Positions 1 to 31,840 of a stretch of 40,680 bases of DNA are shown here, one piece after another. Both the position numbers and the translations under genes were made by a program. The stretch covers positions 1-40,680 of the forward strand of contig CANHRE010000015.1 of NCBI GenBank assembly GCA_947463095.1. Reading direction: 5' to 3'. Positions within the stretch are counted from its first letter, which is position 1, and the number at the start of each line of letters is the position of its first letter. A model generated the notes under the pieces. That model saw only the letters and a list, made by a program, of their open reading frames with translations, was not told the origin of the DNA and made no database searches. Source of the DNA: Flavobacteriales bacterium. Its GTDB lineage: Bacteria; Bacteroidota; Bacteroidia; NS11-12g; UBA955.

Positions 1-301
1 CAATGCGCGCATTGAGGTATTACGTGTATCACCGGGATGAGGCTCGCTGTGCTCGCCTGAACCCGTGAGGGGGGCCTTGCAAGCAAAAGCCGCCGAACAA
101 TGTGTGCATTGAGGTATTACGTGTATCACCGGGATGAGGCTCGCTGTGCTCGCCTGAACCCGTGGGGGGAGCCTTGCAAGCAAAAGCCGCCGAACAATGC
201 GCGCATTGAGGTATTACGTGCATCACCGGGATGAGGCTCGCTGTGCTCGCCTGAACCCGTGAGGGGGGCCTTGCAAGCAAAAGCCGCCGAACAATGCGCG
301 C
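1..301 (+). repeat. Tandem repeat array A, 97-bp unit, three full copies plus the end of a fourth
   Basis: Three copies begin at 11, 108 and 205, each exactly 97 bp from the next. Bases 1-10 match the end of the unit, so the array continues to the left of the window. Copies differ by only a few substitutions, for example GTGTATC versus GTGCATC, and TGTGTGC versus TGCGCGC at the first junction. Each junction forms the palindrome CAATGCGCGCATTG or its variant CAATGTGTGCATTG. Open frames through the array on the minus strand only repeat the unit and do not look like a gene. The whole unit is conserved, with no separate repeat and spacer, so it is not a CRISPR array. Confidence 0.95.
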
Positions 302-319
302 ATTGTTCGGGCTTTTTTT
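284..319 (+). terminator. Intrinsic terminator closing repeat array A
   Basis: A perfect 11+11 bp inverted repeat (288-309) centred on GCGC is followed by GGC and a run of seven T on the plus strand. The left arm is the last part of the repeat unit and the right arm is sequence just outside the array, so only the final copy forms the complete terminator. It would stop plus-strand transcription coming through the array. Confidence 0.85.
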
Positions 320-362
320 ATGCCTCCCGGCTTTCAAACTGCGTTTGACGCCTGTCAGCATA

Positions 363-392
363 AAAAAAGCCGCTTTGCGGGCGGCTTTTTCT
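363..392 (-). terminator. Terminator downstream of tRNA-Ser(GCU)
   Basis: The arms AAAAGCCGC and GCGGCTTTT enclose a short loop and lie directly behind the 3' end of the minus-strand tRNA. The T-run is present when read on the minus strand. The hairpin may work in both directions because the plus strand also ends in T5. Confidence 0.75.
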
Positions 393-394
393 TG

Positions 395-484
395 CGGTGA
401 GGGCGGGATTCGAACCCGCGTTACGACGTTAGATCGTAAGGCAGTTTAGCAAACTGCTGGTTTCAGCCGCTCACCCACCTCACC
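395..484 (-). tRNA. tRNA-Ser(GCU)
   Basis: Read on the minus strand, the acceptor arms GGTGAGG (5') and CCTCACC (3') pair fully and are followed by discriminator G. The anticodon arm is GCAGT-TTGCTAA-ACTGC, giving anticodon GCU for serine AGC/AGU codons. A long variable arm (TTACGA paired with TCGTAA) identifies a class II tRNA-Ser. The T arm contains GGTTCGAATCC. CCA is not encoded. The length is 90 nt. Confidence 0.96.
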
Positions 485-31207: not shown

Positions 31208-31397
31208 AATTTAGGTGGTTTTCAAAACGGTTATTCTGTTGATGACCTGATTTTGAATGCTACTCTGAAAAAGGGCTTTGAGGAATAATAATACCGAGTA
31301 TTGTCGGTGGGTTTAATTTTAGCATGTACAGATCAGCCGCCGTGCAGTGGTAATCAATCACATCAAAACAAGGAAAGGATATAAGCCTGGTTTTGGA

Positions 31398-31654
31398 ATT
31401 ACCCCTTTGTGCTGCGCAGTCGGGGTGAACCCTTGCGGGGGAGGCAACAAAGCCAAAAGAAAGCTTGCCGACTTGGGTCTTTTCAGGGATTACCCTTTGT
31501 GCTGCGCACTCCGGGTGCTCCCTTGCGGGGGAGGCAACAAAGCCAAAAGAAAGCTTGCCGACTTGGGTCTTTTCATGGGATTACCCCTTCGTGCTGCGCA
31601 CTCCGGGTGCTCCCTTGCGGGGGAGGCAACAAAGCCAACAGAAAGCTTGCCGAC
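31398..31654 (+). repeat. Tandem repeat array B, 91-bp unit, two full and one partial copy
   Basis: Copies begin at 31398, 31489 and 31580, exactly 91 bp apart. The third is complete for about 75 bp and then runs into a terminator. Copies 2 and 3 are nearly identical. Copy 1 differs around CAGTCGGGGTGAACC versus CACTCCGGGTGCTCC. Each contains CTTGCGGGGGAGGCAACAAA and GAAAGCTTGCCGACT. Open frames across the array only repeat the unit, so no protein is claimed. The unit is not identical to array A but has the same kind of G-rich core followed by an AAAGCC stretch. Confidence 0.95.
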
Positions 31655-31676
31655 TGCGTCGGCTTATTTTTTTATT
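31647..31676 (+). terminator. Intrinsic terminator closing repeat array B
   Basis: GCCGA (31649-31653, the end of the repeat unit) pairs with TCGGC (31659-31663), followed by TTATTTTTTT on the plus strand. As in array A, the repeat end supplies the left arm. Confidence 0.75.
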
Positions 31677-31723
31677 GGCCGTTTCTTCGCTCAGGCAAGC
31701 CTGGCTTGAAGGCCAATAAAAAA
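31668..31723. repeat. Inverted repeat, 13-bp arms
   Basis: TTTTTTATTGGCC (31668-31680) and GGCCAATAAAAAA (31711-31723) are exact inverted arms around 30 nt. Inside is a smaller CAAGCC/GGCTTG hairpin. The arms link the array terminator to the tRNA terminator. Confidence 0.8.
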
Positions 31724-31748
31724 CCCCGCTTTGCGGGGCTTTCTTTTG
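31718..31748 (-). terminator. Terminator downstream of tRNA-Ser(UGA)
   Basis: CCCCGC and GCGGGG pair around a TTT loop directly behind the tRNA 3' end. The T-run is on the minus strand, the strand of the tRNA. Confidence 0.75.
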
Positions 31749-31752
31749 GCTT

Positions 31753-31840
<88 letters not shown>

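Follow-up and report, generated by a model that had tools for sequence, protein, structure and literature searches.

The nearest known relative of the structures described here is the set of distal repeats (RtT) of Escherichia coli tyrT. These structures are two cassettes, each joining a tandem repeat array to two opposing terminators, which lie behind the two tRNA-Ser genes of a 40,680-nucleotide stretch of DNA from a Flavobacteriales bacterium (the window, which is the entire contig CANHRE010000015.1 of assembly GCA_947463095.1, here contig C15 of G000, a fragmented metagenome-assembled genome of 2.62 Mb in 123 contigs). At tyrT and in the window alike, tandem repeats are located directly behind a tRNA gene. 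A check of the E. coli locus gave a period of 178 and a unit containing 19 nucleotides of the tRNA-Tyr 3′ end, split at the T-loop between GAGT and AATCC, which resembles the direct-type arrays encountered in this analysis (loci L172, L168-Pro, L121, and L125). Despite this likeness, the tyrT units follow the direction of the tRNA whereas those of the window face the opposite way. The tyrT units also feature no inverted copy of the tRNA trailer (score 14), no core motif, and no match to R2, the second of the two covariance models employed below; the window units, in contrast, combine an opposing terminator with an inverted trailer and find no match among Rfam families.

Three further systems share single features with the cassettes. 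In the E. coli rRNA operons, a stable-RNA gene is likewise followed by two terminator structures that enclose conserved sequence, including a small RNA (PMC8144298), but the cassette terminators oppose each other, in contrast to these dual terminators. Quasi-palindromes undergoing template switching exhibit the same matched drift of their arms without strand bias, yet no recurrent cassette linked to tRNA and built on a conserved core is known among them (PMC8794818, PMC8604942). BrickBuilt of Porphyromonas gingivalis also places a tandem repeat within a short inverted-repeat element of Bacteroidota but is a minisatellite in a miniature inverted-repeat transposable element (MITE), with a 23-nt repeat, dispersed near protein genes and without a link to tRNA (PMC4596501). 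No account of tandem repeats behind Bacteroidetes tRNA genes was found in the open-access literature searched, searches for RtT included, and scans with Rfam 15 returned only tRNA above threshold, no known RNA family matching the cassette. The window thus holds two examples of an undescribed and previously unnamed family of tRNA-linked cassettes. With moderate confidence, they are read as DNA cassettes that likely serve as opposing terminators and are kept alike by a process acting at the level of DNA. If this is true, a structure that recurs next to essential tRNA genes across a large class of bacteria has so far had no name.

Anatomy of the cassettes

The tRNA genes were called with ARAGORN and were also matched by Rfam. 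tRNA-Ser(GCT) occupies positions 394–484 of the minus strand. Immediately 3′ of it, on the same strand, lies the trailer X (GCAAGAAAAAGCCGCC, 380–395), followed by terminator 1 (362–385, minus strand), whose hairpin (369–385) precedes a T-tract (362–368) and appears as a side hairpin when the DNA is folded. A middle palindromic arm (TTTTTTTATGC..GCATAAAAAAA, 311–368), recognizable in the sequence and in the DNA fold, separates this terminator from the opposing terminator 2 at the end of the array (287–318, plus strand; stem 287–310, then a T-tail). The 97-bp tandem array itself (1–305, plus strand; 3.1 copies, 95% match) ends in a unit bearing a copy of X on the strand opposite to the tRNA (273–288, plus strand), and the inverted match between trailer and array extends over 15/16 positions, with a score of 27 versus a shuffle maximum of 21. 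A conserved core consisting of a T-arm-like hairpin, a G-rich block, and X, the three elements from which the covariance model R1 was built, occurs on the plus strand in the last (227–285), middle (130–188), and first unit present in the contig (33–91), with R1 scores of 45.2, 42.8, and 45.2 bits, respectively. Contig C15 starts within this array, the far side of which lies at one end (the start) of contig C75; the visible copies are therefore fewer than the true number.

The second cassette adjoins tRNA-Ser(TGA) (31753–31840, minus strand). Its trailer X (CAAAGCCAAAAGAAAGC, 31738–31754, minus strand) recurs inverted in the array at 17/17 positions (score 34 versus a shuffle maximum of 22) and is followed by the hairpin of terminator 1 (31724–31738, minus strand), the middle palindromic arm (31666–31723), both seen in the DNA fold, and the opposing terminator 2 (31649–31672, plus strand; stem 31649–31663, then a T-tail). 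A copy of X in the last unit (31630–31646, plus strand) matches at 16/17 positions. The 90-bp array (31394–31655, plus strand; 2.9 copies, 93% match) contains cores at 31394–31464, 31485–31554, and 31576–31646 on the plus strand, which are weak R1 matches (19.1, 13.7, and 16.3 bits). The succession of array, plus-strand terminator, minus-strand terminator, and tRNA-Ser gene, noted for both loci in the original prediction, is thereby confirmed. Since the inverted repeat carries a different terminator hairpin on each side, a single strand folds as a cloverleaf: X pairs with its inverted copy X′ as the base stem, the terminators form the side arms, and Y:Y′ the middle arm. On a single DNA strand this fold reached z -4.6 for the Ser(GCT) and z -6.5 for the Ser(TGA) cassette, with no shuffle equally good in either case.

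Alignment of arrays against their own tRNA, the procedure by which X was found, defines X as 13–18 nt directly 3′ of the tRNA that recur inverted within the array. An inverted copy of the own trailer with a score of at least 24 occurs downstream of 27/226 different tRNA genes, where mismatched pairs predict 0.41. All but a few of these loci, approximately 26, share one layout. Outward from the tRNA, the order is X, terminator 1, T-tract, arm Y, and apex, continuing with inverted Y, A-tract, opposing terminator 2, inverted X, a block that is C-rich on the tRNA strand and G-rich on the opposite strand, and the T-arm-like hairpin, which reads GGGATTA..TGATCCC on the opposite strand. The convergent pair of terminators, a hairpin plus T-run on both strands, is present in the window loci as elsewhere, with T-runs behind the two terminators in 43/47 and 41/47 elements. 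Array units are tandem copies of the outer half of the cassette, that is, hairpin, G-rich block, X, and terminator 2. Both cassette arms are alike, yet the terminator hairpins within them differ.

In 38/45 training elements defined by the model, X matches the trailer of the own tRNA, whereas comparison with other tRNAs gives 2.9% and with tRNAs of the same type from other genomes 5.8%; outside the model set, the same holds for 16/18 loci versus 2.7% for mismatched pairs. X matches its own trailer and rarely others and is therefore private to the tRNA of each genome, having been copied or kept in step. The hairpin stem is an exact match to the own T-arm in 16/45 elements versus 11%, and the G-rich block is conserved whatever the tRNA type. 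Much of the class thus shares the overall form, whereas each tRNA gene has its own version of most of the sequence. The window arrays showed no direct copy of the tRNA 3′ end, direct scores not exceeding those of shuffles. RNAalifold returned no consensus for full-length units because the terminator parts cannot be aligned. Two roles considered for the G-rich block were rejected: pairing with the own acceptor stem gave no matched signal, and no similarity to the own acceptor 5′ strand was detected.

Linkage to tRNA genes and breadth

The same layout recurs at tRNA-Cys (C76) and tRNA-Met (C100) of the window genome, where each array is cut by a contig end and continues on another contig, C96 and C36, respectively. 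Among 80 relatives, obtained via the AAA-ATPase gene adjoining tRNA-Ser(GCT), the 400-bp stretches that follow tRNAs contain arrays with a period of 60–220 at a density of 7.4 per 10 kb, compared with 0.74 in other intergenic DNA, and hence about tenfold less, and 0.48 upstream of tRNAs. This bears out the original suspicion that the flank shared by the two tRNA-Ser genes exceeds chance, and arrays sought behind other tRNAs were found not only at the Cys and Met genes but at many in relatives. None of the outcomes that would have refuted the prediction thus came about, although the sister species G002, which carries the cassette at Ser(TGA), lacks it at Ser(GCT). In line with such arrays, a contig end lies within 400 bp downstream of 6/32 tRNAs of the window genome, versus 0.6 expected (p = 4e-5); if the reading given above is true, the cassette breaks short-read assemblies at these tRNA genes.

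Over the whole window genome, strong R1 matches are confined to tRNA-linked arrays or to contig ends carrying the Cys and Met arrays, and the pattern of dispersed repeats at many intergenic sites (repetitive extragenic palindromes and bacterial interspersed mosaic elements, REP/BIME, or MITE) was not seen in this search. R1 matches were obtained in 48/88 genomes of the order. The model R2, used for the surveys of class and phylum, matched 62/396 genomes of the class, representing 49/199 genera, and 8/392 genomes sampled over the phylum, other classes included. An intact convergent tRNA accompanies 24/29 loci at the order level, at a distance of 99–420 bp. The other five comprise L256 and L271, located beside a tRNA 3′ end severed from its 5′ part, L273, which is fused to the 5′ half of a tRNA-Pro, and two loci at contig ends, the tRNA fragments having been judged by eye. 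Of the new class-level loci, which played no part in building the models but include a few from species near those used for model training and are to that extent incompletely independent, an intact convergent tRNA is present at 18/25, and a tRNA 3′ end that has been truncated at four or five.

Ordinary minisatellites accumulating by chance in spare DNA behind tRNA genes would account for units that are wholly different between loci and for a variable copy number. The anatomy and motif shared across the class, trailer copies that co-vary with their tRNA, tRNA-specific model matches, and an enrichment that is tenfold downstream and nil upstream of tRNAs stand against such an origin, and the comparison of matched with mismatched trailers contradicts it, rendering it very improbable.

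Serine tRNAs are favored: in three whole genomes, the element is present at 4/7 Ser but 3/82 other tRNAs (Fisher p = 5e-4). The element is not restricted to them, being found also behind Pro, Arg, Cys, Met, and Gln tRNAs, so that no class II rule applies.

Arrays on the other side of tRNA genes were also encountered. A 140-bp array with 3.7 copies lies on the upstream side of tRNA-Asp (L047, G000:C28:193-704), its unit being built from the tRNA-Asp 5′ half, the leader, and a partial T-arm interrupted by a hairpin (TCCCTACCGCAAGCGGTAGGGA); at L216, a 126-bp array (3.5 copies, 98%) upstream of tRNA-Ser(GCT) has a unit made of the tRNA 5′ part and leader. tRNA-Pro(GGG) occurs at two contig ends of the window genome (C26 and C77) with differing downstream DNA and is either a true duplicate or one gene common to two contig ends.

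DNA-level and RNA-level readings

RNA pairing on one strand predicts that G.U mismatches outnumber A.C mismatches in the stems. Among 1172 positions of X/X′ and Y/Y′, 22 G.T and 22 A.C mismatches were counted, and this equality implies that neither strand seems to be selected as RNA. No promoter signal was found upstream of the hairpin (best match 7.46, versus 7.31 on the other strand and 7.42 in shuffled sequence), nor was a conserved column; neighboring upstream genes are mixed in orientation, 11 pointing toward and 18 away from the cassette. Furthermore, in the distal module of L180, which has been displaced from a functional tRNA, the arms have changed together. Taken together, the equal mismatches, the lack of a promoter signal, the mixed neighbors, and the co-change of the L180 arms favor a process acting on DNA.

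These observations bear directly on the idea that the strand opposite the tRNA encodes a small RNA composed of hairpin, G-rich block, trailer mimic, and terminator, in which the repeats would raise the dose and mimicry of a tRNA 3′ end would occupy tRNA-processing enzymes or other partners. Such an RNA would come with its own terminator, and in 71/74 sequences the GGGAUUA/UGAUCCC stem forms a U.G pair when read on that strand; the stem also shows covariation. However, neither a promoter signal nor a conserved upstream column precedes the hairpin, upstream genes show no common orientation, matched complementarity with the own acceptor stem and an Rfam match are both lacking, and the U.G pair may be a relic of the T-loop. 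The small RNA is accordingly considered unlikely, and since promoter signal and stem strand bias are both wanting, the sequence comparisons favor a DNA-level cassette over it. The transcribed repeat RNAs envisaged in the original prediction are likewise unsupported by the promoter and strand-bias tests. Two narrower candidates were rejected, namely a small RNA with its own promoter, as promoters are not enriched and upstream columns unconserved, and the 3′ UTR (untranslated region) of a convergent gene, given the mixed orientation of neighbors. The U.G pair as proof of an opposite-strand RNA was downgraded because the TTC/AAT of the T-loop explains a fixed C.A or G.T and the other stems lack a strand bias.

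Template switching creates inverted copies and homogenizes inverted arms (PMC8794818, PMC8604942). For the DNA-level cassette, this suggests an origin in which a copied tRNA 3′ end would have been inverted through template switching, the same DNA-level process then holding both arms alike while they drift between species. The arrays may expand and contract via recombination or slippage between repeated T-arm and terminator sequences. The opposing terminator would halt transcription from the far side before it enters the tRNA gene in antisense, and the cassette could also catch read-through from the tRNA itself. Of the readings offered originally, expandable terminator cassettes fit best because the unit brings a terminator of its own and occurs in tandem. 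If the DNA-level reading is true, the cassettes provide a naturally occurring case of paired DNA arms that have remained matched over long evolution, and what keeps inverted repeats alike becomes testable.

Several features weigh against this explanation. A plain terminator needs no conserved hairpin, G-rich block, or trailer copy, and the T-tract is lost in the inner units of both window arrays. It is also odd that the terminator hairpins have stayed different if template switching homogenizes the arms. The retention of the U.G pair noted above hints at selection at the sequence or RNA level, and the hairpin stem covaries (25 double-change cells versus 8.3 shuffled); together with the G-rich block, the conserved core stands against a purely neutral view. 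A broader proposal is put forward tentatively: a class-wide element without a described relative may form a cloverleaf, copy from its own tRNA both tail and T-arm, and be kept beside serine tRNAs across Bacteroidota, its core of hairpin and G-rich block being recognized by some factor as RNA or DNA.

T-loop boundaries and integration

The hairpin of the core resembles a T-arm whose T-loop has received an insertion, its stem matching the T-stem of the own tRNA; the cassette probably arose by duplication and inversion of the T-arm. In the direct-type arrays (L172, L168-Pro, L121, and L125), the part of the tRNA from the T-loop to the 3′ end is included in the unit, which is split exactly at the T-loop. 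Behind tRNA-Ser(GCT), L174–L176 and L180 of related species contain two modules in swapped order, A-B and B-A, each beginning with a tRNA 3′ end. Their boundaries and those of L172 fall in the T-loop, with an inserted stretch of variable length. Two islands carrying tyrosine recombinase genes, L339 (G011:C18, 14.3–30.6 kb) and L340 (G068:C19, 156.5–158 kb), split tRNA-Ser(TGA) and tRNA-Arg(TCT), leaving the 3′ fragment and the cassette at the far end. Cassette loci therefore double as integration hot spots.

These boundaries would also be expected of a small non-autonomous mobile cassette, in which modules of about 175 bp enter the T-loop via a tyrosine recombinase acting in trans, each insertion restores the tRNA 3′ end, arrays result from serial insertions, and recombination requires the cloverleaf. 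Modules span T-loop to T-loop in an order that differs among close relatives, direct-type arrays are split at precisely that point, and at several loci a recombinase island has interrupted the tRNA concerned, moving the cassette away together with the 3′ fragment. In contrast, the four cassettes of the window genome, at different tRNAs, have by inspection nothing but the core motif in common and at that level give no sign of recent spread. The cassettes themselves have no linked recombinase, the islands in the cases seen mostly push cassettes aside rather than carry them, and duplication explains identical tandem copies more simply; mobility is thus improbable, about as much so as the small RNA. 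The arrays may also be decayed remains of a tRNA-targeting element, a suggestion that gains from units beginning or ending at the T-loop and from T-loop integrases at the same loci. Should the DNA-level terminator cassette be the correct reading, it would tie together tRNA trailers, opposing terminators, T-loop duplications (those of E. coli tyrT included), and integration hot spots.

Partial tRNA copies were also observed at two other genes. Behind tRNA-Met on C4 of the window genome (L031, G000:C4:1629-1703), the 3′ end and terminator of this tRNA recur as a partial second copy, with a short hairpin preceding the T-arm. At tRNA-Val of G002 (L082), a second partial tRNA-Val copy with a long T-loop insertion adjoins an inverted trailer copy.
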